A stretch of 22,075 nucleotides of DNA from a virus: IMG/VR virus record IMGVR_UViG_3300025430_001271, positions 1 to 22,075 of that record; one strand, given 5' to 3'. The notes under the pieces are model-generated. The model was not told the DNA's origin and searched no databases. It saw only the letters and a list, made by a program, of their open reading frames with translations. The translations under genes were made by a program, and so were the position numbers. Below are positions 1,195-22,035 of this stretch, piece by piece; within the stretch, counting starts at the first letter, position 1; each line of letters opens with the position of its first letter.

Positions 1195-1581
1195 ATGGCA
1201 ATACTATACAAAGGTTTTAGCACTATAAATCGCAGCAAAAAGTTTCGTGCTGTAGATATTGATTTGGTCAAGCAGGATCTGCTCAATCATTTTGGTATCC
1301 GCAAAGGCGAAAAACTCATGCAGCCAAACTTTGGCAGTATTATATGGAGCCTGTTGTTTGAACCGCTTACGGATCATGTCAACGATTTGATAGTCAATGA
1401 CGTCAAAAACATCGTGGGTTATGATCCACGACTGGGACTGAAAAATATCACTATAACTGGTCAAGAACACGGTATTCAAATTGAACTAGATCTTGTATTC
1501 ATACCCACCAACCAGTCAACCACACTCAGCCTGAACTTTGATGCCAACAGCAGCAAGCTGACCACTAGAGGCGCTTATTAA
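1195..1581 (+). CDS. gp25: Baseplate wedge protein, gp25 family
   Basis: This is a 128-residue protein, close to T4 gp25 (132). It carries the GPW/gp25 family signature at residues 38-57, running from GEKLMQPNFGS to LLFEP, with the Gly-Glu, Phe-Gly and Phe-Glu-Pro pattern seen in phage and type VI secretion wedge proteins. A helix rich in D/L/K (residues 21-34) precedes it, and the C-terminal half is beta-strand-like. In T4, gp25 sits in the inner wedge at the sheath-initiation interface together with gp6 and gp53. The ATG at 1195 follows the upstream stop by seven bases; the next in-frame Met (residue 42) would cut off the signature. No strong Shine-Dalgarno is visible. In T4 gene 25 lies away from gene 6, whereas here they are adjacent. 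Confidence 0.93.
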   Translation: MAILYKGFSTINRSKKFRAVDIDLVKQDLLNHFGIRKGEKLMQPNFGSIIWSLLFEPLTDHVNDLIVNDVKNIVGYDPRLGLKNITITGQEHGIQIELDLVFIPTNQSTTLSLNFDANSSKLTTRGAY

Positions 1582-1633: not shown

Positions 1634-4600
1634 ATGTCAATCACTACTCGTCAGACCAACCTACTGGTAAACCAAGACTGGACACAGGTCTACCAAACTT
1701 TCAAACAAGCTGATTTCACCAGCTACGATTTTGAAACTCTACGCAAGACCATGATCGATTACTTGCGTAACTACTATCCTGAAGATTTTAATGACTTCAC
1801 TGAGTCAAGTGAATTTGTTGCCTTGATTGATCTTATCGCATTTTTGGGTCAAAGTTTGTCATTCCGTGCAGATATGAATGCCCGTGAAAACTTTTTTGAC
1901 ACAGCAGAACGTCGCGACAGTATCTTAAAATTAGCACGTCTAATCAGCTACAATCCCAAACGCAATATTGGTGCCAGTGGCTACTTGAAGATTGACAGCT
2001 TGAACACCACAGAAAACCTATTTGACAGCAACGGCTTAAACTTAAGCAATCTGTTAATTTCGTGGAACGACACTGCCAACCCTGACTGGCAAGAACAGTT
2101 TACCACCATCTTAAATGCTGCCTTGATCAGCAATCAAGTGATTGGCAAACCTGGAAATACCAACACAGTAAACGGTATAGAAACTGACGAGTACAGTATT
2201 AACTTGACACCGGGTGTTATCCCACGCAGAACATTCAGCGCCATTGTTGAAAACAGCAAAATTGACTTTGAGGCCGTGAGTGCATCCAGTGTGGGGCAAT
2301 CTTACATCTACGAACCTTCCCCAGTACCGGCTGGCAAATTCAATATCTTGTACCGAAATGATAATTTGGGCAACAACAGCATCAATACTGGATATTTTGT
2401 TTATTTCAAAGAGGGTACATTAAACACACAAGATTTTAACTTGAATCAAAGTTTGCCTAACCGTGTGGTCAGTGTCAATGTAAATAGCATCAATAACGAT
2501 GATATTTGGTTATACCAATTGGATGTTACTGGCGCAGCATCAACACGTTGGTACCAAGTGCCAGCAATTGCCGGTATCAATGTCATCTACAATCAAAGCA
2601 GCAATCGTAACTTATATCAAGTCAACAGCCGCAGCAATGACCAAATTGATCTAGTATTTGGTGACGGTGCATTTGCCAACATTCCACAAGGCATTTATAG
2701 ACTATACTATAGAACCAGCAACGGGTTAAGCTACAAAGTTACCCCTGATGAAATACAAAGTGTTACATTGAGCTTTCCTTATGTAAGTCGTAATAACAGT
2801 GTTGAAACATTAACCATGACTGTGAGTTTGAACTACACAGTATCAAACAGTCAGCCACGTGAGAGCATCGACGATATTCGTACCAAAGCACCTGCCAACT
2901 ACTATACGCAGAATCGTATGATCACAGGCGAAGACTACAGCCTGTTCCCGTATACCAACTTTAGTACAATTTTGAAAGTCAAAGCAGTGAACCGCCAAAG
3001 CAGCGGAACCAGTCGCTTTTTGGATGTGCTTGATGTAACAGGCAAGTATAGTAGCACGAACATTTTTGGATCAGATGGCATACTGTACAGTCAAGCTCCT
3101 ACCACCAGTACAACTTTTAGTTTTGTAACAGCAACAGACATTTACCAAGCCATTTACAACACAGTGGCTCCTTTGGTAACAACCAAGCCAGTGTTGCAAT
3201 ACTACTATGCCAATTTCCCACGCTATTCACCTCCAGCGCTGACCTCATGGAGTCGTACCACTGCTGCATCGGGTAGCAGTACTGGATATTTTGTAAATAG
3301 CAGCAACCAATTGTTGCAAATTGGACTTGGGGTAAGCAACAATTTACAATATATCACAACAGGTGCCATGGTGCGCTTCAATGCCGGCTCGGGCAAATAC
3401 TTTGATGCACAACATCAAATTCAAACGGGCACAGCAACTTATCCTGGCGAACACACCTATTTGTGGTCCAGCGTGGTGATTGCCAATGGTGGTTACAGTG
3501 TGCAACTGAGCCAAAATATTCCCACTGGTGCAGTACCTGACACAATTATTCCAGTGTTTAAGAACGCATTGCCCACAGGCACATTTACTACACAAGTGGT
3601 GCGTCTATTGCAAAGCTATCAAAACATTGGATTGAGCTACAACAACACCAAGCAAGCATGGCAAATTATATTGCCTCAAGATTTGAACTTGGGCGCTTTC
3701 AGTCTCACTAACCAGGGCGATACCACTGGTTCAGGACTGGACAGCAGTTGGCTAGTGGCATTTACCTACAACGGTATCAGTTACAATATTGCTCATCGCG
3801 GACTTGAGTATGTGTTTCAAAGTGCAGGTGAAACACGATTCTATTTTGATCCCGATGTCAAGACATTTGATAGTAAAACTGGATTGACAGTAAATGACCA
3901 AATTTCAGTACTGAAGACAAACAGTCAGCCCGACAGTGCCAATCCAATTGGATTGGATCAACAGTGGTACATCTATAACAACGTGATCAATCCTGACGGA
4001 TATGTGGACAATACACAGGTATTGGTAACTTTCCCAATGACCAATAATGATGGTATTCCTGACGATCCCGATCTGTTTACCAACATCATTGCACCCACAG
4101 TCAACTCAAACAAAAAATATGTATTCTTCCAACAGGTTACATCTGCAGATAATTTCTTAACTACTATTCCTGTTGACAATACAACCATTGTAACTGCCTA
4201 TACAACACAGAGTCAGATCAATGCCAACAGAACCAGTTACATTCCTGGGCAGATATTTTATGCCACCAGTGAAAACGTGTTCTATCAGTACAACGGCAAT
4301 TCAACCAATGTGTCAATGATCACCAACTACATTGCTGAAGTTGGACGCCAAGGCTTGCAGTTCCAATATCGCCACAGTAGCCCTAACGATCGTCGTATTG
4401 ATCCTGCGCCCAACAACATCATGGACTTGTATATCTTGACCACACAGTACAGTGCAGACTATCTGTCCTGGATTCAAGACACTACAGGCACTGTAAAAGA
4501 GCCCAGCTTACCAACCAATGACGAGTTAAAAACTGAATACGGTAGTGGTTCAACCAGCCTTGAAAACTTCAAAGCACTGAGCGATACTATTATTTACAAC

Positions 4601-5005
4601 CCTGGCAAGTACAAGCCGTTGTTTGGAGCCAAAGCAGATCCAAGCCTACAGGCAACTTTCAAAGTTGTTAAAAACCCCAATGTCAATGTAAGCGATAATG
4701 ACATCAAGAGTGGAGTTGTTGCTGCACTTAATGCGTATTTCAATACAGCAAATTGGAACTTTGGGGATGTATTTTACTTCAGTGAACTCAGTACCTATTT
4801 GCACAACCAGCTGGCACCCAATGTGGCCAGCATTATTATTGTACCCAGCAGTACTGATATTGCTTTTGGCAACTTGTTGCAAATCAACAGCAACCCAAAC
4901 GAGATCATGGTCAGCGCTGCCACAGCAGATAATGTACAGATTATCAGCGCAATCACAGCAGCACAAATTAATCAAACCCTAGCAGGATTGGGAATCGTAA
5001 TTTAA
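1634..5005 (+). CDS. gp6: Baseplate wedge protein, gp6-like, enlarged
   Basis: This protein has 1123 residues, against 660 for T4 gp6. The N-terminus (about 1-120) has the layout of gp6 from marine T4-like phages: a short lead, FETLRKTMIDYLRNYYPEDF, then helices ending ENFFDTAERRDSILKLARL, then a GYLKI strand. A Baseplate_J-like stretch at about 340-440 contains DLVFGDGAF and RESIDDIRTKAPANYYTQNR followed by ITGEDY. The region of about 520-800 is rich in S/T/N beta-strand sequence and probably accounts for the extra length. The C-terminus resumes a conserved-looking helical and strand section (SDNDIKSGVVAALNAYF, then NFGDVFYFSELSTYL). In T4, gp6 dimers link neighbouring wedges into the baseplate ring. 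The stop is one base before the next ATG, so the giant protein is probably translationally coupled to it. I noticed no cysteine. Confidence 0.88.
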   Translation: MSITTRQTNLLVNQDWTQVYQTFKQADFTSYDFETLRKTMIDYLRNYYPEDFNDFTESSEFVALIDLIAFLGQSLSFRADMNARENFFDTAERRDSILKLARLISYNPKRNIGASGYLKIDSLNTTENLFDSNGLNLSNLLISWNDTANPDWQEQFTTILNAALISNQVIGKPGNTNTVNGIETDEYSINLTPGVIPRRTFSAIVENSKIDFEAVSASSVGQSYIYEPSPVPAGKFNILYRNDNLGNNSINTGYFVYFKEGTLNTQDFNLNQSLPNRVVSVNVNSINNDDIWLYQLDVTGAASTRWYQVPAIAGINVIYNQSSNRNLYQVNSRSNDQIDLVFGDGAFANIPQGIYRLYYRTSNGLSYKVTPDEIQSVTLSFPYVSRNNSVETLTMTVSLNYTVSNSQPRESIDDIRTKAPANYYTQNRMITGEDYSLFPYTNFSTILKVKAVNRQSSGTSRFLDVLDVTGKYSSTNIFGSDGILYSQAPTTSTTFSFVTATDIYQAIYNTVAPLVTTKPVLQYYYANFPRYSPPALTSWSRTTAASGSSTGYFVNSSNQLLQIGLGVSNNLQYITTGAMVRFNAGSGKYFDAQHQIQTGTATYPGEHTYLWSSVVIANGGYSVQLSQNIPTGAVPDTIIPVFKNALPTGTFTTQVVRLLQSYQNIGLSYNNTKQAWQIILPQDLNLGAFSLTNQGDTTGSGLDSSWLVAFTYNGISYNIAHRGLEYVFQSAGETRFYFDPDVKTFDSKTGLTVNDQISVLKTNSQPDSANPIGLDQQWYIYNNVINPDGYVDNTQVLVTFPMTNNDGIPDDPDLFTNIIAPTVNSNKKYVFFQQVTSADNFLTTIPVDNTTIVTAYTTQSQINANRTSYIPGQIFYATSENVFYQYNGNSTNVSMITNYIAEVGRQGLQFQYRHSSPNDRRIDPAPNNIMDLYILTTQYSADYLSWIQDTTGTVKEPSLPTNDELKTEYGSGSTSLENFKALSDTIIYNPGKYKPLFGAKADPSLQATFKVVKNPNVNVSDNDIKSGVVAALNAYFNTANWNFGDVFYFSELSTYLHNQLAPNVASIIIVPSSTDIAFGNLLQINSNPNEIMVSAATADNVQIISAITAAQINQTLAGLGIVI

Positions 5006-5006
5006 T

Positions 5007-8000
5007 ATGGCACAAATAAAGACAAGCAATTTCTTACCCGAAGTATTTAAAACAGATACTAATCAAAAGTTTTTAAATGCCACTCTAGACCAGCTGGTTA
5101 CACAGCCTGATTTAAGAAACGTCAACGGCTATATTGGTCGTAAGTTTGCTCCTACTTTTAAAAGTACAGACAATTATCAACCTGAACCCAATGTGCTACG
5201 TCAAAATTATCAGCTGGAGCCCAGTGTTGTTGTAAAAAACAAAATCACAGGCGATACTGAATTCTTCAGCAGCTATATAGATCTATTGAATCAAGTGGGT
5301 CACTACGGTGGGTTAACAAACAATCAAACAAGACTATTCACTAGCGAAAGCTACAGTTTTGACGGCTTGTTTGACTTTGATAAATTCATTAACTTTAACC
5401 AGTACTACTGGTTAGAAAATGGTCCAGATGCTGTGCAAGTATACGGTAGCGCAGTGCCAACTACAGAGACGTTTACGGTTACTCGTAATACTGCAACTGG
5501 TACATACAGTTTCAGTAACGCACAAGGTGTAGAAAATCCCACTATACGTCTTGCCTACGGTGGAACATACAATTTCGTAGTTGACCAACCTGGATATCCT
5601 TTTTGGATACAGGCCAGTTCTGGCGTGAGCGGAATCAAAGACAATCAAACCAACTTGACCAGTCGCGATGTACTGGGTGTGACCAATAACGGAACAGATG
5701 TTGGTACAATCACGTTCCGAGTGCCGCAGCCCAACGCACAAGATTTTTATGTGCGTATGCCTCTAGCAGGCAGTGCCGATATCAGCACCATGTTGAGTTA
5801 TACTCAAATACAGGGAAAACGTTTGAGCAGTATTGTTTCGTTATTTGAAAATGGTATTGACGGCGTCGCTGCACCCAACCAACTCAATTTAAAATCATTG
5901 ATTTTTGTCAACAATGACTTAGACGACAGCAAATGGATTGAAGGTACCTATGGACTTATTCCAACTGCTCAAAGACGCAATGCTTGGCAAATCACACTCA
6001 GTTCAACTAACGGTGTAATTGATGCTGATCCTATTGTAAAATTAAATCCATTGGTGCAATCTTTTGCAATCTCTGCATTACAGAAAGTTTTTGTACGTGG
6101 CGGAAATTCGCGTGCAGAGTACACCTACTATTTGGCCAATGACTATTTGTCTTTGAATTTATTCAATTTGATGCCAGACATTACAGCACCTTTGTCCAAC
6201 TTGTATTATCAAGATGGAGTTGGTGCCAGTTTTGTTGGCGAAATAGATCTATTGGATCCCACATCGGTCACCATCAACGTTGATGCCAACATTGTTGGTA
6301 GTAAAAATTACAAGAGTCCCAATGGGGTTACATTCACAAACGGACTCAAAGTGACGTTTGATGACAGTGCTGTGCCCAACACCTATGCTGGCAATACCTA
6401 CTATGTTGAAGGTGTTGGCAGCGCAATACGTCTGCTGGATGTCAACAACTTTATAACTCCCGAATCTTATGCAGCAAATGGCCTTGCTGCACAAGACTAC
6501 ATCACTGTCAATCGCGGTAGCCAAGATTTAAACCCTTGGACACGCAGCAATCGTTGGTTCCATATTGATGTCATTAACACCACAGCTGCCTATAACAATG
6601 TCAATCCAATATTGTCTCAAAACCTACGTGCCAGCCGCCCAATTATTGAATTTGAAGCTGACCTACAGTTGTACAATTTTGGTCGTCAGGCCAAAACGCC
6701 AGTGGATCTATTGGATTTTACCATTGTTGACAGCCGCAATACTGTGGAATTACAGCCAGCTGGTTATACGCTGGGTGGTGTCACTCTGACACAGGGCATG
6801 CGAGTTGTTTTTGCCAACGACTTTGATCCAACTGTACGCAACAACATATTTGTAGTCAATATTGTTTATCTGCCAGGTCTTGGGGGAAATGTCATTAACT
6901 TGGTATCAGCCAGTGATGCCACAGTAGCCATCAATAATAATCTTGTGGTATTACGCGGTACCAACAAAGGTGTTGAGTACTGGTATAACGGTACTTGGAT
7001 TCAGGGACAACAAAAAACTGGTGTAAATCAATCACCTTTGTTTGATGTGATTGACAGTACAGGCACCAGTGTTGGCACATATACCGGTGCTTATTATGCA
7101 GGCACAACAACTCCTTTTGCTGGAACAAAAATTTTCAGTTACAGTGTTGGCACCGGCAACAACGATACTGTATTGGGGTTCCCGTTAAGTTATAGAAACT
7201 TTAATCAAATTGGTGATATTCAGTTTACAAACAACTTTGATACCGACACAATTGATTATGTTGACGGAGCCGGCACCGCACAGTCCAGTGTCAACATCAA
7301 TACATTGGGCACCCTACAACAAAATAAAAGTTTAACTGCCTACACATCACGCAACTCATGGACCACCAACACAGAACCAAGCAAACAGTTCCAAGTTATT
7401 GGCAACATCTATGACGGTAACAACGCATATTTTCAAATTGATATTGCACAAAATAGTGAGGTCACTGTACCCTACTTTCGAGTATACAAAAACGCAATAC
7501 AAATTACTGGTTGGGAGTTTGTCACTGTTGGCACAATCAAATATGTGCATGTCACTGACGCAACATTGAGCACGGGCGATCAAATTGACATCTTGGTGTA
7601 TAACAGCAGCAGCACCAGCAATTTGGGCTATTACGAAGTTCCCAAGAACTTGGACTTGAACAGTCAAAACTCTGAATTCAAAAGCCTTACACTGGGGCAA
7701 CTACGTAACCATGTCAGCACCATGGTGGCCAACAGTAATCAAATTACTGGCAGCTTTCCAGGCGCAAGTAATCTACGCGATACTTATATCAAGGCACAAG
7801 GCGGCAGCATCCTGCAACATGCAAGCCCAGTGTTGTACAGTGAATTGTTCTTGGTGGATGACAAAACCAATTTTATTGACTCATTGAATTTGGCACGACA
7901 CGAATACAGCAAAGTCAAAAATAAAATTATTGAATTAAGTGGTAGATTGTCTGGACTTGATTATACCAATATTCCAGTGTTGCTTGACACCTTGTTGAAA

Positions 8001-11000
8001 AATATCAATGCAGTCAAAAACAAATCGTTTGCTTGGTACTACAGCGACATGGTGCCATATGGAGATATCAAAAACACCATCACTTATACTGTATTGAGTG
8101 CAGAAATTGTTGACTACGAGATCAGCAGTATTTTCAGCGACACCACTCTCAGTAACCTTGCAGTATTAGTGTACAAAAACAATGTACAGTTGATTAAAGG
8201 TATTGACTATGTGTTTGACACCAATCGCGCTGGTATCACATTCTTGACTCCGTTAGCAATTGATGACGTGATCACCATTAACGAGTACAGTGACACTGAC
8301 GGGAACTATATTCCTGAAACTCCAACCAAGTTGGGCTTATATCCTAAATTTACCCCAAGCAAGTATTACGATACAACCTATGCCAGTCCCATATATGTGA
8401 TACAAGGGCATGATGGAAGTATCACTCCCGGCTTTGGTGACTACCGTGATGATTTGTTGTTGGAGTTTGAAAAACGCATCTACAACAACATCAAAGTTGA
8501 TTATGTTAAAAATGTATTTGACATATACAATTTCTTACCTGGTAAATTTAGATCAACTGAATACAGCAATACCGAGTTTACACAGTTATTGACCAACAGC
8601 TTTTTGACTTGGGTTGGCGGAAATCGTGTTGACTATATCTCCAACACAACTTTTGTTGCCAGCGAGCCGTTCAGCTGGAATTACAATCGTTTTGTTGATA
8701 CCGTTAACGGTGCCAAACTGCCTGGATACTGGCGTGCCATCTACAAGTATTTTTACGACACTGATCGTCCACATACCAATCCTTGGGAAATGGTTGGATT
8801 TACCGAACAGCCCACATGGTGGGAAACACGTTACGGCCCTGCACCCTATACCAGCGGTAACAAAGTGCTCTGGGGTGATATGGAAATTGGGTTGATTTGG
8901 AACAACGGAGATGTCTCTGTTGACAAACGTTTTGCACGTCCCGGATTAAGTTCAATTATTCCAGTAGACTATACCGGAGCACTATTGCCTCCAAGCAACT
9001 TCTTGGTCAAGAGTTTTAGCAGTAACAATGCCAGTGGCAATTTTAAAATTGGCGATCAAGGACCAGTGGAAACTGCATGGCGTCGCAGCAGTGATTTTCC
9101 TTACGCTATGCAACAAGCCTTGGCTCTAGCAAAACCAGCTTTCTACTTTGGTACACTGATGGACATTGGGCGTTACTATAAGAATATTGATCTAAATCAA
9201 TATGTTGTCAGCGACACACTACAACGTGTGACACCTGCAATAATCAATGTAAATGGTACCACCAATGGCAAAAACACCATACTACGTGCCGCAGGCTACA
9301 TAAACTGGATTGCTGAATACCTACGCAATCAAGGTATTGATCCTGGTACCAAACTGTATGAATATCTTGACAATGTCAATATTCAATTGGCCTATAAAAT
9401 GGCTGGTTTTACAGACCAAACTTTTATGCAGGTGATTGCAGAACAAAGCAGTCCCTCTAGCACCAACAGCGGAGTGGTTATCCCCAACGAGAGTTATGCC
9501 ATCAAGCTGTACAAGTCAACTCCTATCAAAACTGTAACCTACAGTGGTGTCATTGTTGAACGTACTGCTACAGGATACACAGTGAGCGGGTTTGATACAG
9601 ATGCACCTTACTTTACTATTATTCCAAGCCTGGCCAATAATAACAGTTACAGTTTGACAGTATTGAACGAAAAAGGTGTCATATATCAAGACTATCAACA
9701 GTACAAAGTAACTATACCTTATGGATTTGAATTTACAAATCGCCAACAGGTGGTGGACTTTTTGGTGAGCTACCAACGTTACTTGCGTGGCATTGGGTTC
9801 CGTTTCACTGATGTTGACCCCGATCTTGGCGTTCAACGTGACTGGTTACTGAGCGTACAAGAATTTTTGATGTGGGTGCAGCAGGGTTGGCAAGCCAGTA
9901 GCGTACTGGTATTGAGCCCGGTACTTAACCGAGTAACATTATTCAGTGCATCAGGTGTTGTTGACAAGATTCAAAATCATCCTGGGCAAAGTCGTGTACT
10001 TGACACCAACTACAACTTTGTCAAATACAGCCAATTGAGTGTAAACCGTACCAGCTTGGCTACAGGCAATACATTTGTATTGAATGCAAATAATGGACAA
10101 ACACTGGCTTTGGTAAAAGTAGATGTAGTTGAATACGAACATGTCATGATATTTGACAACGTGGATATTTTCAACGATGTCATCTATGTTCCCGAACTGG
10201 GCAATAGACAGTACAGATTGAAACTGGTTGGCAAGAAAACTGGCGCTTGGACAGGTGCAATGAATCCTCCAGGCTTTGTGTTCAACAATACCACAGTGGA
10301 TGCTTGGCAACAAGGCACAGACTACTTGATGGGCAGTTTGGTACAATACAAGAGCAACAACTATACAGCACTACAAGATGTTGTAGCATCGGGAACATTT
10401 GATACTACCAAATGGGCCTTGGTACCCGGCAACGGACTAAAAACAGGCCTGTTGCCTAATTTTAGCTACAATGCTGAGAAGTTCAATCGCTTTAATGATG
10501 TTGACAATCCCGAACTACTGGGCGACTTCCACTTGTACAGTGACAGTGCCATTGGCTTCCAGCCACGCGATTATTTGACAAACTTTGGTATTGACGAAGT
10601 CACACAGGCCAAGTTTTATCAAGGGTTTATTCGTGAAAAAGGCACATTAAATTCTATCTATGCGTTTACCGCAGCCGGTTTCAACGGCATTACCAGCGAC
10701 ATCAGTATCTACGAAGAATGGGGTATGCGTGTTGGCGAGTACGGTGCATTGGACAACAATCGCAGCGTTGAACTGATTCTAACTGAAGGCACCTTCAACG
10801 GTGATCCTGTCACATTCACGCTATTGCCCAACAACGGCTCTAGCATCAGCGGCATAATTGGTGTACAACCCTCAAAATTGTACAAGACCGAAGGCACATT
10901 CCAACCCAACATCTATTTAAATCGCAATGCCGGCAGCATCTACAGTAACGATATTCAAACAGCAGGCTATGTTGATATAAATGATGTTACTACCACAATC

Positions 11001-14000
11001 TTTAACATCAATAATCTAGCAGCATTGTCTTCCAATATTGGCAAAATTGGTATTGGATCTACAATTTGGACCGCTAATGATGTTAACTCAGATTGGAACG
11101 TGTATCGAGTCAGCGAAACTGATGTTACAGTACAAACAATATCATATGCAATTGACAACATTGGAACAGTCACAACAGACAAACCACACGGTTTGGCCTA
11201 TAACGATATCGTTGCAATTAAAGGATTTGATGTACGGGTTGATGGATTCTACCGAGTATACAACATTGTTGATGCCTTTAATTTTAGCATAGTATTTTAT
11301 GGGCAAAATGCAACACAAATCAAACAGGCCATTACCATTGTTGGCACCGGTCCGTTGTTCATGTTGCAATCTGTACGTATCAAATCTCCAACAGATCTAA
11401 ACAGTATTACTCCAGCACACGGTTGGATCAACAATGATAAACTTTGGGTGGACAATGACAATCTAACTAACGGTTGGGCTGTGTATAACAAAAGTACACC
11501 GTGGTCAGGTAACGTCAGCCCGCTAAACCCTAGCATGAAACTGAACGCAAACAGTTATGCAACGGGCACAGGATTTGGTACAGTCACCACAATCAATACA
11601 GCAGGAACTTTTGCAGCGGCAGGATTGCCTACGCTGAACATGGGTAATGTGATTGCATTTGTTGCCAACATCACCAACGGCAATGTGTTTACTGCGGTTG
11701 CAAACATTGGCGCACATCCAGGAAATAGTGTAAACAAGTTTGGTGCAAGCCTTACCACAGCAGGTAATCTGTTGTATATTGGCAACCCTGGCACAGGCAC
11801 ACAATACGGACGTGTACACATTCATCAGTTTAACGGCAATGCCAGCTTCCCTTGGATTCAAACACTAACAAGCCCATGGAGTAGCAACGCCAGCGATGCT
11901 TATGGCACCAGCATTGATGCCAGTGCAGATGGTACTTGGTTATATGTTGCTGCACCCAATGCGGGCAATGTGTATGTGTATCAGGCCAATGCCAATAGTT
12001 ATTACAGCTATGCCAATACTATTACAGTTGGTAGCAGCAGTGCAGCACAATTTGGTTACAATGTAAAAACCACCAGTGATGGCCGTCAAGTTGCGATTGG
12101 TGCTCCTTATCAAGCAGTCAACGGCGTAAGTGCAGCAGGTGCAGTCTATGTGTTTGATCGCAGCGTTGAAGCATTTATTGCTAACGGTGTCACATATACA
12201 ACACAGTACACAATTGGAACTACCAGCCGTGTGACAGTGAACGGTAATGTTGTGTCTACAGGTTATACCGGCACCGGCACTACCACATTGACATTTGCTA
12301 CTGCTCCTGTAGTTGGCAGTTTGATCACAGTTGAAACCAACAAGATACAGTTGCTTGAAACACTGACAGCACCCACACCCAAGAGCGGTGCAGCATTTGG
12401 TACAACAACTTACATTGCTGGTAACGATGCCGACGTGTATGTTGCAAGTCCTGGTTACAGTGTACCTGGCTACTACAGTGGTATCGTGTATCGCTTTGTG
12501 AACCAAGGCGCCAGCTATGGCACAATTACCAGCACAAACTACTCGCCTGTGATCAACACTGGAGATAACTTCCGCATCAACGGATTTGAAATTGTATCAC
12601 AAAGCAACACTGTAGCCAATCTTGCAGCCACAATCAACAGCGCAAATATTCCAGGTGTTACTGCGATTGCACAAGGATATGGCGCACTGACATTGACCAG
12701 CAATGTAACCACCCCGTATCAAAAGTTGGTAATTGGGTCTGGATCGGGAAACTTGTTGGCCAACTTGGGCATGATGGTATACAACAACGTACAGACACTG
12801 CAACATCCTGCACAGGACAGCGTGGCCGAATACGGTAGCCAAGTGTTGGCAAGCCCTGACAGCTCAAGTCTAGTGATTGCAGCCAATGGTGGTAGTACAC
12901 AAAACATCACAACTTTTGACACTGCAACAACCACTTTTGATACCAGCACTGGAATCTTTATTGACACAATTGAAGGTTCGGGCATGGTATACATTTACGG
13001 TCTAGTAAACGGAGCTTTTTCAAGCACTGCACAAGATCAATATGTATTAATTCAACGTCTGCAAAATAATCAATTGAGCAGCAATGACCAATTTGGTTAC
13101 AGTGTGGCAATGAATGCCAATGTCATGTTGGTTGGTGCTCCTGGCGACAGCAACACCATGACATTCAGCACCATCAATGGTGCATACACTCCTATTCCAA
13201 GTGCAGGTACATACTATACCTACAACAACTTTAGCGGCAATGTGGGCTGGGATGTTGTTGAACAACAAGTGGATAAAGTTGATATTGACAGCATTGGTAG
13301 AATGTACTTGTACAATGCAAATACCAATGTGATTGTGACTCAGCTGGATTATATTGATCCTGCTAAAGGCAAAATACTGGGCGCTGCACAACAAGATCTA
13401 GACTATATCACTGCATACGATCCTGCAAGCTACAATGCAGTCAGTGGTATTGATAATATCCCCAACCTTGCAAACAGTTTGGATTACCATTGGGGTCCAG
13501 ACCATGTTACTAAGACTTGGTGGAATACTGGAGTAATGCGCTACATTGATTATGAACGTGGCGATTTGATTTATAGTGCAAATAACTGGGGCAAGTTGTT
13601 CCCAGGCAGCACAATCCAAGTCTGCGAATGGGTTGAAAGTGACATGCCTCCCAGCGCTTATACAGGATTGGGAACTCCGCTATACTCCGACAACAGTGCT
13701 TACAGCATTGTGACCACAATCAACCCTGAAACCAAATTGGCTACCAGCAAGTACTACTACTGGGTTACAGGTAAAACCAGTGTTGAACCTGACAGTGTAC
13801 ACATCAACACAATCAGTACAATTCAAGATTTGATAACCAATCCACAGGCACAAAATATTCCTTATGCAGCAGTGGTACGCAGCGATACTATCAGTCTACA
13901 CGGTATCAGCAACTATCTAAGTGGAAATAGTACTGTGCTACATGTTGACTACGACACATTGAAAAATTCACATGTGATCCATAGCGAATACCAATTGGTG

Positions 14001-17000
14001 CAAGAAGGCAACCCCAATAGCCCAATTCCCAAACGCATCATCAACAAGTTGATTGACAGTTTGAGCGGTATTGACGCCAATGGCGTGGCAGTTCCTGAAT
14101 CAGTGTTGACTCCGCAGAGCAGTATTGGACTTGGGGTATACCCAAATCAAACACTGTTTGTAAATCGTTTGTCGGCACTGAAAAACTGGGTTGAGTATGT
14201 AAACGGCATACTGATACAGTATCCCATTGTTGAAGAATTCAACATCAGTGGCTTGTACCAATCTGCTGCTTTGCCTGACTTGTCAGCATACGATTTGCAA
14301 GTTGCAACACATGCCGAACTTGGCTATGTAGAAACCGACTACTTGACAGCAGGTTATGTGGCCTTGGTCACAACAGACGAGACACAGCAAGAACTATGGA
14401 CCACATACACATGGAATGGTACTGCTTGGGTTTTGACCACGGTACAAAGCTACTACACACCGTTCTATTGGAGCAAAACAGACTGGTACGACAGCACCTA
14501 TGACAGTACAGTATTGCCCACATACGTGGTCAACACCACATCGGATGTTGCTGCACTGACATTGGCTGTTGGTGACACAGTCAAAGTGTTAAACAACGGC
14601 AACAGTCAATTTGTTGTTTATCGTGTAAACAGTGACTCTACTACTAGCCTAGTGGGCATTCAACAGGGTACTATACAGTTAAACAGCAACTTGTATACTA
14701 CTGATGTTGCTGCCAACGAGATACGCATTATATTTGATGTATTGATGAACTATATTTTTATTGACACACTAAAAGTCAATTTTAATAACATGTTCTTCTT
14801 CTTGATCAACTATATTTTAACTGAACAACCAAACATTGATTGGGCATTTAAAACCAGCTTTATCAGTATCTTGCACAAGTTGCGTAAGTTGGACCAACCA
14901 GCTAACTATGTACCAGACAATCAAACCTATTACGAAAACTATATCAATGAAGTCAAACCTTACAGAACCAGTATTCGTAACTACCTGATTGACTATCAAG
15001 GCAACGACGAGTACTATGGCGATACCACAGACTTTGACATTCCTAGCACTTATATAAATGATTTTGGCGGTTATCGCAGCCCAAATAGCAGCAACGGACT
15101 GGATTATACATGGTTAAGCACACTACCTCAGTATAGCCAATGGTATAAAAACTACACTTACGGTATCACCAGTGTAACAGTGGCCAATATTGGCGCCAAC
15201 TACACACTTACACCCACTGTGACTGTTGTTGGCGGCGGAGGCAGCGGCGCAAATGTACGTGCCCTAGTAAACTTTGGAAACAACACCATTGAGGCGTTCC
15301 AAGTAATCAACCCTGGTTCAGGATATACCAGCCAGCCCACTATCTTTATTAACGGTACAGGTACTGGTGCTACAGGCTATGCAACATTAAAAAATCACTA
15401 CATGATTGAAAGTTTACCAACCACAGCATTGACTGCAAACAGCAATGTCACAGTGTATGTTGGCAATTTGATCACACAGCCCAATACTGGTGCATACGGT
15501 ACTGTGTACTCGGCCAGCACTGGTAATTTGATTACGTTGATTGATACCACAGGAACATTTAACACCACTGACTACATTTTTAGTGATGCTGCCAATTTAC
15601 ATACCAATGTAACCACTATCAGCAGTTATACACAGTTTGTAAATCAAAGTTACAATACAACACGCTCCATGGCAGTCACATTGAACTTTGATCGTGTCAG
15701 CTACAGCAGCAACGTGATTACTTGGCAACCCAATATCACAGTGGCCAACAGCACAGTTGTAAGCTATAACGGACAAGCGTATCAAGCAACCAGCAACGTA
15801 TACAGCACTGCTATTTTGACCTTGAGTGGAAACGTAAGTGCCAGCGTTGGCAACTATGTTACACAGGCCAACACCACAGCCAATGCTCAAGTTATTGCCA
15901 TCAGCAGCAATTTGCAGTTGATCACAGTGGCCAACTTGTCCAGCAACTTTGTGCGTCGTAGCGGAAATATTGCAGTCAACGGAACTCCAACCAATGTGCG
16001 CCCGGTTGTGGTCAACAACATATTTGACTATACCAAATACAACAAGATAACATCTACACAAGTTGGCACAGCAGCAGATCGCATCAACGCATACTACACA
16101 CCCACTGCCAGTATGCCCAGCAAAGATTTGGCGCAGTTGATGACTGGTGCAGAATATCCAGGCGTCACAGTGGCTGGAGTAACCTACGAGGCCAACAGCA
16201 GCATATTCAGTAGCAATTTGATTTACTCACAATCAAGTACCAGTGCAATTTATAGTGCCAACATCACTATCCCAACAGTGCAATTAACGATTGCAAATGT
16301 TGAAACACTATATACTGGCAACGTTATTACTCAAGCAGTGACTGGTGCGACCGGTAACGTATACAGCACCAGCACTGGTAATATAGTTACTTTAGTGAAT
16401 GTAGTGGGCAGTTTTGACAACACTCACTATATTTTCCGTGATTCATCAAACTTGGCCACCACAGTGGTCAGTAGTACATCGTTTAATCAAACAACTACTC
16501 AAAACTTGGTGGACTTTACCAAATTGAATTACACCGCTGGACAGCCTCTAGTGTTGGTAAACCGAGACAACAGCACTCAGTACAATTTGGTCATTAATGA
16601 AATTGATCCTTGGAGGATAATTGTTGGCGGTGCGTTACCAACTACCACAATTGGTGCCAATTTGTCTTTGAAATACTACGACTACAACAATCCGTTGTAC
16701 TTGGACAGTATCATTCAAAATACCTACACCAACAGCAACACAGCAATCAATATAGATGGCGGTGCCTATTATGACACCTACAGCGGACATGGCCCTGAAG
16801 AACTGGCACCTGGGGTCACATTTGACAATCTAAATATGTTGGTCACAACCAAGTTTAGAAATAATACAGCTATTGGAACTTATCGTATTGTACACAATAT
16901 GAATGCCAATGCAGCAAGTACCGATACCACAGTGTGGCCACAGTACTATGGGGTCAGCGCAAGTCATACCACTACATTAAGCGCCAATTTAAACATCACA

Positions 17001-17435
17001 GACAGCAATGTTCATGTTACCAATGCCAGAGCACTAACAACCCCAAATCCTGCAAGTTTGGTGCCCGGCGTGGTCTACATTAACGGTGAAAAGATTGTGT
17101 TCTGGGGCTTGGACACAGTCAACAACGTATTGTTTAATATTCGCCGCGCTGTTGATGGTACTGGCGCAGCCAACGTACACGCAGCTGGATCCACAGTGGT
17201 TGAATCTGGAATCAATCAGCTGATTCCGGGCGGAAACATTGTCCACACCACAACTTGGCTAGATCTACCAGTGGGTGCAGCGCAGAATATGACTGACAAT
17301 TTTGGCACACTGATTGTGGATAATTTTGGAAATATTCTTCAAACTACTGGTGCAAATCCAGGCGCAGTAACAGATGGACAGGGCTTGGAAAACTCAACTA
17401 CAGTTCAAGCACAATTTATCAGAAACTTGACCTAA
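5007..17435 (+). CDS. Giant virion structural protein in the gp7 position (4142 aa)
   Basis: This is an uninterrupted 12.4-kb gene starting one base after gp6. The N-terminus (SNFLPEVFKTDTNQKFLNAT, then DLRNVNGYIGRKFAPTFKS) looks like the large structural protein that follows gp6 in aquatic T4-like phages; I recall this style but cannot align it. Conserved-looking core stretches include about 1230-1330 (W/Y-rich: LPGYWRAIYKYFYDTDRPHT, WEMVGF), 1850-1890 (DYLTNFGIDEVTQAKFYQGF) and 2800-2890 (DYERGDLIYSANNWGKLFPG). Accessory segments include a carbohydrate-binding-like motif (1764-1810), a PHGL-containing beta domain (2051-2098), an FG-GAP propeller (2242-2771), a GSGY beta repeat (3387-3463) and three 60-residue repeats (3480-3824). 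Near the C-terminus, residues about 4025-4070 contain VYINGEKIVFW and an RRAVDGTGA turn. T4 gp7 has 1032 residues. Position suggests a wedge or baseplate-peripheral role, but homology to gp7 is not shown. I noticed only one Cys, residue 2873. Confidence 0.75.
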   Translation: MAQIKTSNFLPEVFKTDTNQKFLNATLDQLVTQPDLRNVNGYIGRKFAPTFKSTDNYQPEPNVLRQNYQLEPSVVVKNKITGDTEFFSSYIDLLNQVGHYGGLTNNQTRLFTSESYSFDGLFDFDKFINFNQYYWLENGPDAVQVYGSAVPTTETFTVTRNTATGTYSFSNAQGVENPTIRLAYGGTYNFVVDQPGYPFWIQASSGVSGIKDNQTNLTSRDVLGVTNNGTDVGTITFRVPQPNAQDFYVRMPLAGSADISTMLSYTQIQGKRLSSIVSLFENGIDGVAAPNQLNLKSLIFVNNDLDDSKWIEGTYGLIPTAQRRNAWQITLSSTNGVIDADPIVKLNPLVQSFAISALQKVFVRGGNSRAEYTYYLANDYLSLNLFNLMPDITAPLSNLYYQDGVGASFVGEIDLLDPTSVTINVDANIVGSKNYKSPNGVTFTNGLKVTFDDSAVPNTYAGNTYYVEGVGSAIRLLDVNNFITPESYAANGLAAQDYITVNRGSQDLNPWTRSNRWFHIDVINTTAAYNNVNPILSQNLRASRPIIEFEADLQLYNFGRQAKTPVDLLDFTIVDSRNTVELQPAGYTLGGVTLTQGMRVVFANDFDPTVRNNIFVVNIVYLPGLGGNVINLVSASDATVAINNNLVVLRGTNKGVEYWYNGTWIQGQQKTGVNQSPLFDVIDSTGTSVGTYTGAYYAGTTTPFAGTKIFSYSVGTGNNDTVLGFPLSYRNFNQIGDIQFTNNFDTDTIDYVDGAGTAQSSVNINTLGTLQQNKSLTAYTSRNSWTTNTEPSKQFQVIGNIYDGNNAYFQIDIAQNSEVTVPYFRVYKNAIQITGWEFVTVGTIKYVHVTDATLSTGDQIDILVYNSSSTSNLGYYEVPKNLDLNSQNSEFKSLTLGQLRNHVSTMVANSNQITGSFPGASNLRDTYIKAQGGSILQHASPVLYSELFLVDDKTNFIDSLNLARHEYSKVKNKIIELSGRLSGLDYTNIPVLLDTLLKNINAVKNKSFAWYYSDMVPYGDIKNTITYTVLSAEIVDYEISSIFSDTTLSNLAVLVYKNNVQLIKGIDYVFDTNRAGITFLTPLAIDDVITINEYSDTDGNYIPETPTKLGLYPKFTPSKYYDTTYASPIYVIQGHDGSITPGFGDYRDDLLLEFEKRIYNNIKVDYVKNVFDIYNFLPGKFRSTEYSNTEFTQLLTNSFLTWVGGNRVDYISNTTFVASEPFSWNYNRFVDTVNGAKLPGYWRAIYKYFYDTDRPHTNPWEMVGFTEQPTWWETRYGPAPYTSGNKVLWGDMEIGLIWNNGDVSVDKRFARPGLSSIIPVDYTGALLPPSNFLVKSFSSNNASGNFKIGDQGPVETAWRRSSDFPYAMQQALALAKPAFYFGTLMDIGRYYKNIDLNQYVVSDTLQRVTPAIINVNGTTNGKNTILRAAGYINWIAEYLRNQGIDPGTKLYEYLDNVNIQLAYKMAGFTDQTFMQVIAEQSSPSSTNSGVVIPNESYAIKLYKSTPIKTVTYSGVIVERTATGYTVSGFDTDAPYFTIIPSLANNNSYSLTVLNEKGVIYQDYQQYKVTIPYGFEFTNRQQVVDFLVSYQRYLRGIGFRFTDVDPDLGVQRDWLLSVQEFLMWVQQGWQASSVLVLSPVLNRVTLFSASGVVDKIQNHPGQSRVLDTNYNFVKYSQLSVNRTSLATGNTFVLNANNGQTLALVKVDVVEYEHVMIFDNVDIFNDVIYVPELGNRQYRLKLVGKKTGAWTGAMNPPGFVFNNTTVDAWQQGTDYLMGSLVQYKSNNYTALQDVVASGTFDTTKWALVPGNGLKTGLLPNFSYNAEKFNRFNDVDNPELLGDFHLYSDSAIGFQPRDYLTNFGIDEVTQAKFYQGFIREKGTLNSIYAFTAAGFNGITSDISIYEEWGMRVGEYGALDNNRSVELILTEGTFNGDPVTFTLLPNNGSSISGIIGVQPSKLYKTEGTFQPNIYLNRNAGSIYSNDIQTAGYVDINDVTTTIFNINNLAALSSNIGKIGIGSTIWTANDVNSDWNVYRVSETDVTVQTISYAIDNIGTVTTDKPHGLAYNDIVAIKGFDVRVDGFYRVYNIVDAFNFSIVFYGQNATQIKQAITIVGTGPLFMLQSVRIKSPTDLNSITPAHGWINNDKLWVDNDNLTNGWAVYNKSTPWSGNVSPLNPSMKLNANSYATGTGFGTVTTINTAGTFAAAGLPTLNMGNVIAFVANITNGNVFTAVANIGAHPGNSVNKFGASLTTAGNLLYIGNPGTGTQYGRVHIHQFNGNASFPWIQTLTSPWSSNASDAYGTSIDASADGTWLYVAAPNAGNVYVYQANANSYYSYANTITVGSSSAAQFGYNVKTTSDGRQVAIGAPYQAVNGVSAAGAVYVFDRSVEAFIANGVTYTTQYTIGTTSRVTVNGNVVSTGYTGTGTTTLTFATAPVVGSLITVETNKIQLLETLTAPTPKSGAAFGTTTYIAGNDADVYVASPGYSVPGYYSGIVYRFVNQGASYGTITSTNYSPVINTGDNFRINGFEIVSQSNTVANLAATINSANIPGVTAIAQGYGALTLTSNVTTPYQKLVIGSGSGNLLANLGMMVYNNVQTLQHPAQDSVAEYGSQVLASPDSSSLVIAANGGSTQNITTFDTATTTFDTSTGIFIDTIEGSGMVYIYGLVNGAFSSTAQDQYVLIQRLQNNQLSSNDQFGYSVAMNANVMLVGAPGDSNTMTFSTINGAYTPIPSAGTYYTYNNFSGNVGWDVVEQQVDKVDIDSIGRMYLYNANTNVIVTQLDYIDPAKGKILGAAQQDLDYITAYDPASYNAVSGIDNIPNLANSLDYHWGPDHVTKTWWNTGVMRYIDYERGDLIYSANNWGKLFPGSTIQVCEWVESDMPPSAYTGLGTPLYSDNSAYSIVTTINPETKLATSKYYYWVTGKTSVEPDSVHINTISTIQDLITNPQAQNIPYAAVVRSDTISLHGISNYLSGNSTVLHVDYDTLKNSHVIHSEYQLVQEGNPNSPIPKRIINKLIDSLSGIDANGVAVPESVLTPQSSIGLGVYPNQTLFVNRLSALKNWVEYVNGILIQYPIVEEFNISGLYQSAALPDLSAYDLQVATHAELGYVETDYLTAGYVALVTTDETQQELWTTYTWNGTAWVLTTVQSYYTPFYWSKTDWYDSTYDSTVLPTYVVNTTSDVAALTLAVGDTVKVLNNGNSQFVVYRVNSDSTTSLVGIQQGTIQLNSNLYTTDVAANEIRIIFDVLMNYIFIDTLKVNFNNMFFFLINYILTEQPNIDWAFKTSFISILHKLRKLDQPANYVPDNQTYYENYINEVKPYRTSIRNYLIDYQGNDEYYGDTTDFDIPSTYINDFGGYRSPNSSNGLDYTWLSTLPQYSQWYKNYTYGITSVTVANIGANYTLTPTVTVVGGGGSGANVRALVNFGNNTIEAFQVINPGSGYTSQPTIFINGTGTGATGYATLKNHYMIESLPTTALTANSNVTVYVGNLITQPNTGAYGTVYSASTGNLITLIDTTGTFNTTDYIFSDAANLHTNVTTISSYTQFVNQSYNTTRSMAVTLNFDRVSYSSNVITWQPNITVANSTVVSYNGQAYQATSNVYSTAILTLSGNVSASVGNYVTQANTTANAQVIAISSNLQLITVANLSSNFVRRSGNIAVNGTPTNVRPVVVNNIFDYTKYNKITSTQVGTAADRINAYYTPTASMPSKDLAQLMTGAEYPGVTVAGVTYEANSSIFSSNLIYSQSSTSAIYSANITIPTVQLTIANVETLYTGNVITQAVTGATGNVYSTSTGNIVTLVNVVGSFDNTHYIFRDSSNLATTVVSSTSFNQTTTQNLVDFTKLNYTAGQPLVLVNRDNSTQYNLVINEIDPWRIIVGGALPTTTIGANLSLKYYDYNNPLYLDSIIQNTYTNSNTAINIDGGAYYDTYSGHGPEELAPGVTFDNLNMLVTTKFRNNTAIGTYRIVHNMNANAASTDTTVWPQYYGVSASHTTTLSANLNITDSNVHVTNARALTTPNPASLVPGVVYINGEKIVFWGLDTVNNVLFNIRRAVDGTGAANVHAAGSTVVESGINQLIPGGNIVHTTTWLDLPVGAAQNMTDNFGTLIVDNFGNILQTTGANPGAVTDGQGLENSTTVQAQFIRNLT
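10296..10437 (+). other. CBM5/12-like carbohydrate-binding motif within the giant protein (residues 1764-1810)
   Basis: The segment has the aromatic pattern of a chitin-binding CBM5/12 fold: Trp1767, then a Tyr and Gly before LVQY, then NYTALQD, then a closing Trp1803 in TTKWALV. A shorter version of the pattern recurs at about 3571-3602 (TWQPNITVANSTVVSYNGQ followed by AYQA). Such modules bind polysaccharide in secreted enzymes. Here it could be a surface glycan contact or simply a small beta decoration. Confidence 0.45.
11730..13320 (+). other. FG-GAP / integrin-alpha-like beta-propeller region in the giant protein (residues 2242-2771)
   Basis: Six blade-like units share an [F/Y]G-x-S or similar start, a dg-x-x-[L/V]-x-[V/I]-[G/A]-x-P centre and a G-x-V-Y-[V/I]-[Y/F] end. 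Examples are KFGASL (2242), DAYGTSIDASADG (2295), QFGYNV with VAIGAP and GAVYVF (2347), AFGTTT with VYVASP (2461), EYGSQV with GMVYIYG (2606), and DQFGYSVAMNANVMLVGAP (2693), closed by GRMYLYN. Units 3, 4, 5 and 6 carry insertions. A seventh blade was not identified. Clear calcium loops of the DxDxDG type are weak or absent. Confidence 0.65.
12552..12747 (+). other. Flagellin-IN-like segment inserted in the propeller (residues 2516-2580)
   Basis: The stretch runs DNFRINGFEI, a polar turn, NTVANLAATINSANIPGVTA, then GALTLTS. This is the layout of the flagellin hook IN motif: strand with I-N-G, helix ending in A-x-I-N, GVTA strand, LTLTS strand. It sits between propeller units 4 and 5. The match is by eye only. 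Confidence 0.5.
15165..15395 (+). other. GSGY-type beta repeats in the giant protein (residues 3387-3463)
   Basis: Two similar units, SVTVANIGANYTLTPTVTVV then GGGGSGANV, and FQVINPGSGYTSQPTIFING then GTGATG, follow the pattern V-x-[V/I]-x-[N/x]-x-G-x-x-Y-x-x-x-P-T-[V/I]. Repeats of this kind are common in phage and bacterial surface proteins and usually form short beta arches. They follow a Y/W-rich stretch and precede the first copy of the 60-residue repeat. Confidence 0.6.
15444..15623 (+). repeat. Internal 60-residue repeat, copy A (residues 3480-3539)
   Basis: Copy A begins NVTVYVGNLITQPNTGAYG and continues with a TVYSASTGN turn, an LITLI strand and DYIFSDAANL. It aligns by eye with copy C almost along its whole length, and with copy B more loosely. 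Confidence 0.7.
15831..16010 (+). repeat. Internal 60-residue repeat, diverged copy B (residues 3609-3668)
   Basis: Copy B begins NVSASVGNYVTQANTTANAQ and keeps the V-G-N-x-[V/I]-T-Q opening and the S-x-N-L-x-L-I centre, but has lost the Y-I-F-x-D box found in copies A and C. Confidence 0.45.
16296..16478 (+). repeat. Internal 60-residue repeat, copy C (residues 3764-3824)
   Basis: Copy C begins NVETLYTGNVITQAVTGATG and continues with NVYSTSTGN, IVTLVNVVGSF and HYIFRDSSNL. Its match to copy A is visible at protein level and partly in the DNA, for example the shared agcactggtaat that ends the STGN turn. Confidence 0.7.
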
Positions 17436-20313: not shown

Positions 20314-22035
20314 ATGACTATACCTAATGCAGCAGCTAGATACGGCCTAGGAGTCACATACGTAGAAAACTCCGGGACTTGGAATCCACTTAAAGGTATG
20401 TGGATTAACAATGCAGACGGAACTTGGCATCCAGTTAAAACTGGCTGGGTAGCACACGAGGACGGAACTTGGGAGCGTATCTACCCAACCCCTAAAGGTA
20501 TTTTTACACCCAATGTGGCCAGTCTCAATGCCAGTCCCTATCAATATCATTACACAGGCAATCTAAAGTTTCAAGTTACCAATACTGGCGACTATACTTT
20601 GGTCATTAACAATGCTTCAGTCACTGACAACTTTGGAAATTACAATACATCAACTTTTACTTCATCAAACGCATTTCCAATCACACTAGAGACCAATGCA
20701 TCTACAACTTTTACTAGCATCATCTATGGCGGTATTAGTGGTGGCATTTTTACAGGCGGCAATATTGGCACTTTTACTGGCAATATCAATTTCACAAACT
20801 ACACAGGGTATCTAGGTTATGCAAACGTAAATTATCCAGTGGTGGTAAATGTGTTACCCGACTTCAACGGCATTGGGTCCAATGTAGCTGCATTGTCAAA
20901 TGTGTCTTATTATCAATACGAGACACCAACAGCACAAATTGTCACAATTACCAATACTGGCAATGGCGCCGACTTGCATATATCAAATATCACTAGTCAA
21001 CACGGTTATGTTATAGCATCCACAGCAAATTTGACAGCAAACGTTATTGGATATAATTTTAACACTTACACAGGAAACGTTGCTCAACTGGCAGTAACAC
21101 CAGTGGCAGGATTGTCCACTGGAACATACAAAGATACGGTAGTGATCACTAGCGATGCCCTAAATGCTCCAGTATATAAAATACCGGTCACTGTCAATGT
21201 AATTACACCAAATGGCAGGGATGTTCTTGAGACCGAGGGCAGCTATACTTGGACAGTTCCTGCCCATGTATATCGTATTCGTCTGTTCTCAGTTGGTAGC
21301 GGTGCTGGGGGTGGTGCCGGAGTGTCAAATTATTCTACACAGCAAGGCGGATCCGGGGGCGGCGGTGGATCAGGTGGATACCAATACAGTTCCAGCTTGA
21401 CTGTTGTTCCTGGAGAAACATTGACTATATCCATTGGTGTTCCGGGCGGAGCAGGTACTAAATCGGTTGGCATTTATAGCACTATTACAAACTATGGTGT
21501 TTGGAGTAGTTTTATGAACAACTATGCAGTTTGGGTAAGTGCCAATGGTATCGGGCCAGTCAATCGCTATGTGGGAACAAAACGTTTGGTCACATTCCCA
21601 GTTACTGGCAATTATACATTTTCTGCACAGGCTGATAACAGCGTTATCGTCGGTGTTGATGGTGTACAAAAATTAACTTCTAGTTCTTACAGTACATCAA
21701 CCACTGCCTCAGTCAGTATCACTCAAGGCAGTCATGTTATTGAGTTTTTATCGCTTAACACCGGTGGCATAGGCGGATTTGCATTGACCATAGCAGATCC
21801 CACTTCAAATATCATATGGACCACTAGAACACTATTGGATCCATCGTCTGGATTTGATGGCGGCCCTACCACAGTTACTGGTAGTTTTGGCACTATTACA
21901 GTTGCGGGCGGTGTTGCTGGTGGCGGCGCATACAATGACTATTCTCCTCCCGGATACTATGGCGACGGACAAGGTGGCGAACCTGGCGACGAAGACAGCA
22001 CCGACGGTGCTGGCGACGGCGGCGGTGGCTGTTAA
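20314..22035 (+). CDS. Gly-rich adhesin with Ig-like and PA14-like segments
   Basis: This is a 573-residue, multi-segment tail-tip or fibre-tip protein. Residues 21-58 hold tandem Trp units (GTWNPLKGMWINNADGTW, then GWVAHEDGTWERIYP). Residues about 62-190 and 195-300 look like two Ig-like domains of the Hydin/choice-of-anchor-D kind (VTNTGDYTLVINNASV; ITNTGNGADLHISNI; KIPVTVNV). Residues about 305-385 start a glycine-rich adhesin fold (YTWTVPAHVYRIRLFSVGSG, then a G-rich loop and GETLTISIGVPGGAGT). A PA14-like insert occupies 386-510. The glycine-rich fold resumes with TGSFGTITVAGG and ends in a run of Gly, Asp and Glu closing with GGGGC. The final Cys is the only one seen. Gly-rich tips of this sort bind host receptors in several T4-like phages (for example the S16 and T2 gp38 adhesins), but no receptor can be inferred here. 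There is no signal peptide, as expected for a virion protein. Confidence 0.75.
   Translation: MTIPNAAARYGLGVTYVENSGTWNPLKGMWINNADGTWHPVKTGWVAHEDGTWERIYPTPKGIFTPNVASLNASPYQYHYTGNLKFQVTNTGDYTLVINNASVTDNFGNYNTSTFTSSNAFPITLETNASTTFTSIIYGGISGGIFTGGNIGTFTGNINFTNYTGYLGYANVNYPVVVNVLPDFNGIGSNVAALSNVSYYQYETPTAQIVTITNTGNGADLHISNITSQHGYVIASTANLTANVIGYNFNTYTGNVAQLAVTPVAGLSTGTYKDTVVITSDALNAPVYKIPVTVNVITPNGRDVLETEGSYTWTVPAHVYRIRLFSVGSGAGGGAGVSNYSTQQGGSGGGGGSGGYQYSSSLTVVPGETLTISIGVPGGAGTKSVGIYSTITNYGVWSSFMNNYAVWVSANGIGPVNRYVGTKRLVTFPVTGNYTFSAQADNSVIVGVDGVQKLTSSSYSTSTTASVSITQGSHVIEFLSLNTGGIGGFALTIADPTSNIIWTTRTLLDPSSGFDGGPTTVTGSFGTITVAGGVAGGGAYNDYSPPGYYGDGQGGEPGDEDSTDGAGDGGGGC
21469..21843 (+). other. PA14-like beta-sandwich inserted in the glycine-rich adhesin (residues 386-510)
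   Basis: The segment contains YGVWSSFMNNYAVWVSANG, then LVTFPVTGNYTFSAQADNSV, IVGVDGVQKL, and QGSHVIEFLSLN followed by GGFALTIAD. This follows the PA14-type order: Tyr-x-Phe strand with A-D-N/D, V-x-V-D-G turn, then G-x-H-x-[I/L]-x-[F/L] strand. PA14 domains often bind glycans. The match is by pattern only. Confidence 0.5.

Follow-up and report, generated by a model that had tools for sequence, protein, structure and literature searches.

Our analysis points to an integrin-type beta-propeller inside the baseplate of giant phages. In the window, which is the whole 22,075-nucleotide stretch of viral DNA that we analyzed, ORF 5007..17435 (plus strand) encodes a virion structural protein of 4,142 amino acids at a baseplate-wedge position, and residues 2164 to 2751 of this protein (11496..13259, plus strand) are predicted to form a calcium-free, seven-bladed FG-GAP beta-propeller of the integrin alpha type. 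The assignment draws on Pfam, a structural model, and both structural and profile matches. The propeller sits in an exchangeable slot and, by analogy with other phage tails, may be a surface platform for docking or display, a calcium-free accessory part; we put the chance of this reading at about one in two.

A giant protein at a baseplate-wedge position

The profile of phrog_10938 (virion structural protein) matched the giant protein with 1058 bits, at positions outside the slot, and the record of PA5oct annotates the homolog in that phage as detected in virions by ESI-MS/MS. The stretch begins with a hub-like protein (3-1187) that has an M15-type peptidase domain, followed by a gp25-like wedge subunit (1195..1581, plus strand; phrog_43), a gp6-like wedge subunit (1634..5005, plus strand; phrog_10646 at E = 7e-290, with a weak match to Pfam Gp6-like_1st) and, directly after that, ORF 5007-17435. 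The peptidase in the hub-position protein is C-terminal (VanY-like, with a phrog endolysin label), where T4 gp5 has a lysozyme. On the 3' side of the giant gene, ORF 20314-22035 encodes PA14 and glycine-rich domains.

Other regions of the giant protein gave matches as well. Upstream of the propeller, residues 1766 to 1794 (10302-10388) weakly match CBM5/12, which is of the chitin-binding type, and this match recurs below threshold in SCTP-2 and in P-HM2 gp7. Further along, residues 3385 to 3553 (15159-15665) hold G-x-G-Y repeats that match phrog_460, labeled "head closure," as well as the repeats of cyanophage gp7. We did not adopt head closure as the function of this region; it consists of G-x-G-Y, P-HM2 matches too, and the hit was taken as a repeat match. 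The labels attached to phrog_460 ("head closure") and phrog_10938 ("head and packaging") are probably misleading.

A predicted seven-bladed propeller of the integrin type

The FG-GAP repeats of the giant protein, located in residues 2242 to 2772, are not a product of chance. The Pfam family FG-GAP_2 (PF14312) matched the whole protein at E = 6.6e-10 and the segment at 1.4e-11, with 44.8 bits against a curated cutoff of 23, and 53 of the 54 relatives in the alignment also have it (best E = 3.3e-31). The pattern [FY]G...P...G occurred 6 times compared with 1.5 in shuffled sequences, a count of 6 being reached in 4 of 2,000 shuffles. Strand ends of the VYVF type were more extreme, with 5 occurrences against 0.09 in shuffles and no shuffle among 2,000 reaching 5.

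An AlphaFold2 model of residues 2060 to 2860, built from an alignment of 54 sequences (A1), had a mean pLDDT of 82.5, with most of the propeller core above 90. Combined with DSSP, the model predicts a closed propeller made of seven consecutive four-stranded blades. Its best structural match with VIA-align was 7usl_A (Z 35.8, rmsd 2.7, 348 residues, spanning model positions 105 to 690), and the best 50 PDB matches listed were all integrin alpha chains, with Z between 32 and 36. Independently of the model, the profile of A1 recovered integrin alpha-4 at 1.5e-7 when compared with all PDB sequences.

An earlier note, made from the sequence alone, had proposed an FG-GAP propeller built into a baseplate-type protein. 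Its proposal is borne out by the Pfam match above the cutoff, by the predicted integrin-type fold, and by the gp25-gp6 gene order. The structure prediction and blade count that it recommended returned a propeller with seven blades. The six units that it had recognized correspond to blades 2 to 7; what it missed was a degenerate first blade. Likewise, the limits that it gave (11730-13320) overlap the domain, but the true start lies about 230 bases earlier and the true end about 60 bases earlier.

The blades follow one another on the plus strand. Blade 1 (11583..11711, residues 2193 to 2235, from DSSP of the model) is the degenerate one, with the sequence FGTV..., and the model places blade 2 at 11748..11870 and blade 3, which has no insert here, at 11913..12023. 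Blades 4 (12063..12365) and 5 (12405..12803) each include an insert where strand 3 connects to strand 4, and blade 6 (12840..13058) has a 27-residue insert in its 2,3-loop at 12897-12977. Blade 7 (13104..13265), which is supported by Pfam as well as the model, contains the best single FG-GAP_2 match (residues 2685 to 2716).

No DxDxDG-like calcium motif occurs in the propeller of the window; the 20 rows scanned contained just three partial matches, each isolated. With no DxDxDG loops, the integrin calcium sites are missing here. The earlier description of these loops as degenerate did not go far enough.

Domains inserted in the propeller loops

The two large inserts in the window's propeller are predicted to occupy equivalent positions. 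The blade-4 insert (12180..12320, plus strand; model positions 333 to 379) lies in the 3,4-loop and appears from the model and from profile matches to be a small beta domain; the blade-5 insert (12504..12779, plus strand; model positions 441 to 532) lies in the 3,4-loop of the next blade. In many relatives, blade 3 also has 50 to 220 additional residues in its 3,4-loop, and a 66-residue stretch is nested in the blade-5 insert of some. The L078 clade has neither of the large inserts of blades 4 and 5. Clades differ in having no such insert, two, or three, and these inserts all lie in the corresponding 3,4-loop of neighboring blades. The calcium of integrins forms a bridge from the 1,2-loop to the 3,4-loop (PMC3192720); the phage protein has its insertion sites in the 3,4-loops, on the side where integrins hold calcium. 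From propeller topology, we infer that the inserts share one face.

The family assignment of the inserts is weak. Those of blade 3 look like tandem small beta domains, and the one in L062 matches Phage_T7_tail, the N-terminal domain of the T7 tail fiber, with 28.5 bits against a cutoff of 25.2. The resemblance of the window's blade-4 insert to this T7 domain is weak (E = 0.19). A search with a profile of this insert also picked up a stretch near residue 1050 (1046 to 1094) of the same protein, at 2.8e-5 in L001 and 0.023 in L029, which suggests that such small domains probably recur within the giant protein. For the blade-5 insert, Flagellin_IN was matched in one relative only, and the window's own copy, when compared alone with Pfam, gave no convincing match.

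A slot between conserved flanks

Relatives of the giant protein, which we gathered from viral contigs, phage records, and genome contigs, share the parts on either side of the propeller. Flank A (10554..11396, plus strand; residues 1850 to 2130), on the 5' side, occurs in all relatives, including RaK2, 121Q, and PA5oct. Flank B (13224..14006, plus strand; residues 2740 to 3000) overlaps the end of blade 7, and its conserved part proper begins at about residue 2755. Both are conserved across the whole family, and what lies between them varies. The distance from flank to flank is 610 residues here and 470 to 1,045 in other propeller-bearing relatives, compared with about 90 to 120 in RaK2, 121Q, and CBB. 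The earlier note had asked whether the segment is present or absent as a block; with conserved flanks and changing contents, it does behave as a block that some relatives have and others lack, and it is not uniform across homologs.

The other occupants are diverse. The slot of L042 holds a YHYH domain (PF14240, 1.5e-26), and those of Atu_ph07, Phosso, and L138 to L146 hold long stretches of G-x-G-Y repeats. In SCTP-2, the slot matches Laminin_G_3 at E = 0.025, which is below the cutoff, and it has no match to the PDB by sequence; we did not accept it as a lectin domain and keep it as a lead. Three contigs (L044, L072, and L121) have two ORFs in place of the giant gene, which is interrupted at the propeller joint. 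A stop codon, an AAGGA site resembling a ribosome-binding site, and a new ATG can be read at L044:16802-16830 and L072:16822-16850. We interpret these splits as natural gene fission of the baseplate protein. A propeller was not found in these three split-gene loci.

Searches of phage records with the propeller (tblastn) found none in the slot, and this absence applies to the eleven isolate slots examined, because tblastn is insensitive to such repeats and nearly missed the 16 of Phosso. The propeller-bearing phages known here are all represented by metagenomic contigs, among them L047, L065, and L048 with lengths of 261, 320, and 344 kb. The Phosso repeats belong to a separate giant hypothetical protein of this Sinorhizobium phage (L148:3977-8531, record 57900-68978), encoded outside the baseplate operon. 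The 16 FG-GAP_2 repeats fall in its first 1,518 residues (E = 7e-126) and probably make up at least two propellers, whereas FG-GAP_2 repeats are absent from the slot in the wedge-position protein of Phosso itself. We also considered a cellular origin of the domain. A scan of genome contigs returned three loci, all of them the phage protein with one or both flanks, in contigs binned to marine MAGs; this was a single scan with patterns specific to the phage family, so that cellular relatives could escape it.

History and rates of change

The distribution of the propeller among relatives is strongly clustered. In a tree of the two flanks (84 rows, with the root not inferred and some long branches uncertain), all 67 propeller-bearing rows belonged to a single clade with 69 members (SH-aLRT 100). 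Its two remaining rows, L042 with its YHYH domain and L044 with its split gene, are sisters nested inside it (support 99 and 100). The propeller label changed 2 times on the tree compared with 15.6 times in shuffles, which rules out frequent swapping of slot contents. Read most simply, the propeller was gained once and then lost once within the clade, and one of the two sister rows has since come to hold YHYH in the slot. The propeller thus comes across as an accessory domain that is for the most part inherited and not often exchanged, and other baseplates of relatives manage without one.

Within the query's clade, where identities were measured against the query, the propeller was 57 to 85% identical, compared with 59 to 83% for flank B and 64 to 88% for the gp6-like protein. 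The C-terminus (residues 3400 to 4142) reached 42 to 77% with partial coverage. In close relatives, no gene of the stretch changed faster than ORF 20314-22035, for which identities were often 32 to 55% or no match was found, some of the unmatched cases being contig ends. Variation in host range is more plausibly sought in this ORF than in the propeller. Across 1,275 pairs, the propeller core tracked the flanks (rho 0.85) at about 5 to 10 points less identity. The comparisons within the query's clade give no support to a hypervariable receptor module and do not look like those of a host-range determinant. At larger distances, outside the close clade, the propeller did diverge faster, with 31 to 35% identity for L013 and L024 against 47 to 52% for the flanks.

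Comparison with known propellers

The integrin alpha propeller belongs to a supercluster with VCBS and tachylectin (PMC8023676). The phage domain resembles it in having seven four-stranded blades and FG-GAP repeats, in superposition (Z 35.8), and in profile match (1.5e-7). Furthermore, both can have a domain inserted in the propeller, as in those integrins that carry alpha-I. The alpha-I domain sits between blades 2 and 3, whereas the phage inserts lie in the 3,4-loops of blades 3 to 5. In integrin alpha chains, DxDxDG calcium loops lie between strands 1 and 2 of blades 5 to 7 (PMC3192720), and the phage propeller has none. It also differs in what surrounds it, as there are no transmembrane or leg domains and no Pfam leg family; flank B of phrog_10938 follows instead. 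Although its fold is predicted to be integrin-like, the phage domain does not count as an integrin.

Bacterial FG-GAP repeats are likewise known to build a seven-bladed propeller, in a paper that mentions no phage (PMC3192720). The phage domain shares the repeats and the number of blades; here, however, they are inside a jumbo-phage protein and lack the calcium loops. Among phage tails, the nozzles of T7 and SU10 have a seven-bladed propeller in a tail protein, interrupted by inserted domains, that docks both a short tail fiber and a tail needle, but these are short-tailed phages, the gene is another one, and the SU10 inserts are between blades 2 and 3 (PMC9509320). For two baseplate propellers, that of phi11 Gp45, which is five-bladed, and that of phiKZ gp131C, a role in receptor binding has been suggested but not fully proven (PMC4901313). 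Like our domain, gp131C is seven-bladed and belongs to a jumbo myophage, where it lies at the baseplate periphery (PMC4901313); unlike it, gp131C and Gp45 are separate proteins and do not occupy a slot in a wedge protein. phiKZ gp131C was not among the structural matches listed.

Bacteria were already known to have FG-GAP propellers, and phage tails to have propellers of other kinds. The literature that we searched, which includes a minority of subscription papers, contains no account of a phage baseplate protein with a propeller of the integrin type. A fold familiar chiefly from adhesion receptors of animals and surface proteins of bacteria would thereby be placed in the contractile-tail baseplate of giant phages. 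The defined slot, with its alternative occupants and its gene split, offers natural presence/absence comparisons for the function of an accessory wedge domain. In addition, with small domains added at matching loops of neighboring blades, this would be a clear case of a propeller serving as a display scaffold. Finally, proteins now labeled only "virion structural protein" or "hypothetical protein" gain a domain annotation.

Possible functions of the propeller

We propose that the propeller could be a rigid body at the wedge surface, set between two conserved parts of the giant protein. It would present the small beta domains on one face, where integrins hold calcium, and might also dock other tail proteins, possibly the fiber-like proteins encoded just downstream. 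The nearest experimental analog for such docking is the T7 and SU10 nozzle, in which a seven-bladed propeller with inserted domains docks the tail fiber and needle (PMC9509320). Since the propeller is about as conserved as its flanks within the clade, and the C-terminus and ORF 20314 change faster, the comparisons make a platform for docking or display more likely than a determinant of host range. It is unlikely that the propeller is the main determinant of host range. Some observations run against a platform: the faster divergence of the propeller at distance could reflect change driven by a ligand, and the YHYH and subthreshold Laminin_G_3 occupants, of types that others have tied to carbohydrate binding, favor a receptor role.

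That role is the core of a somewhat unlikely alternative, in which the propeller and its inserts would be an adhesin for the host surface and the slot a socket filled with different adhesins in different phage lineages. The other slot occupants fit it, namely YHYH and the possible Laminin_G-like domain of SCTP-2 (E = 0.025, below the cutoff), as do the weak CBM5/12 match upstream in the same protein and the five-bladed propeller of phi11 Gp45, which has been modeled with GlcNAc (PMC4901313). We retain it as the leading rival, in part because work on pelagimyophages linked YHYH and concanavalin-type domains to host recognition (PMC7029224). Yet conservation within the clade is similar for the propeller and the structural flanks and much lower for ORF 20314 and the C-terminus, and inheritance within one large clade was vertical, with one gain and one loss rather than rapid swapping. 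These results so far give no support to the receptor contact that the earlier note had entertained; its other options, fiber docking and a purely structural domain, are still viable. In a bolder version, which we consider improbable, the wedge protein would have an adhesin socket, with a calcium-free propeller, or a YHYH or lectin-like module in relatives, plugged between its separable halves, and the propeller's calcium face would have become a rack for fiber-type domains, one per blade, in an integrin-like adhesive head of the contractile-tail baseplate. The propeller could also be a purely structural spacer or reinforcement in an overlong wedge protein, with no specific partner. The lack of calcium loops and of hypervariability is consistent with this, along with a slot that is nearly empty in RaK2/121Q/CBB-type phages and a gene that can be split there. 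We nevertheless find a spacer quite improbable: one clade has kept the propeller across very divergent members, with flanks down to about 30% identity, and domains have accreted at one equivalent loop of three adjacent blades, a combination that suggests a functional face.

Relationship to gp7

It is possible, if doubtful, that the giant protein is a homolog of T4 gp7 and the propeller a lineage-specific elaboration of it. The protein follows gp25 and gp6 as does the 4,454-amino-acid protein annotated as gp7 in P-HM2, and it follows gp6 as does T4 gp7. P-HM2 gp7 also has YHYH, a weak CBM5/12 match, and G-x-G-Y, modules of the kinds that occur in the slot of this family. At residues 1878 to 1880 (10638-10646) there is a conserved K-G-T, in the context FYQGFIREKGT, that resembles FYSSKGT of cyanophage gp7 and FYSTKGI of T4 gp7, and hhalign aligns this motif near residue 1878 with that of cyanophage gp7, at a level that is not significant. 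Against homology, hhalign comparisons of the conserved core (A2 and A3) with T4 and cyanophage gp7, single and aligned, gave nothing significant, and neither did hmmsearch. The conserved core has no detectable homology with P-HM2 gp7, in which we found no FG-GAP domain. The families PF21427, PF21456, and PF21428, which occur in T4 gp7, were absent from residues 1100 to 2060 and from a scan of the whole protein. A model of flank B (residues 2745 to 3400), the other model besides that of residues 2060 to 2860, had no PDB match at Z of at least 5 with Foldseek and VIA, and gp7 did not appear, although it could still be related. With membership in the T4 gp7 family unsupported by hhalign, hmmsearch, and Pfam, we do not file the giant protein as gp7. 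On reading the sequence of T4 gp7 itself (L147:6061-9159), we noted an Asp-box-like stretch, SNDKGQTW, from which we suspect that T4 gp7 may hold a propeller too.
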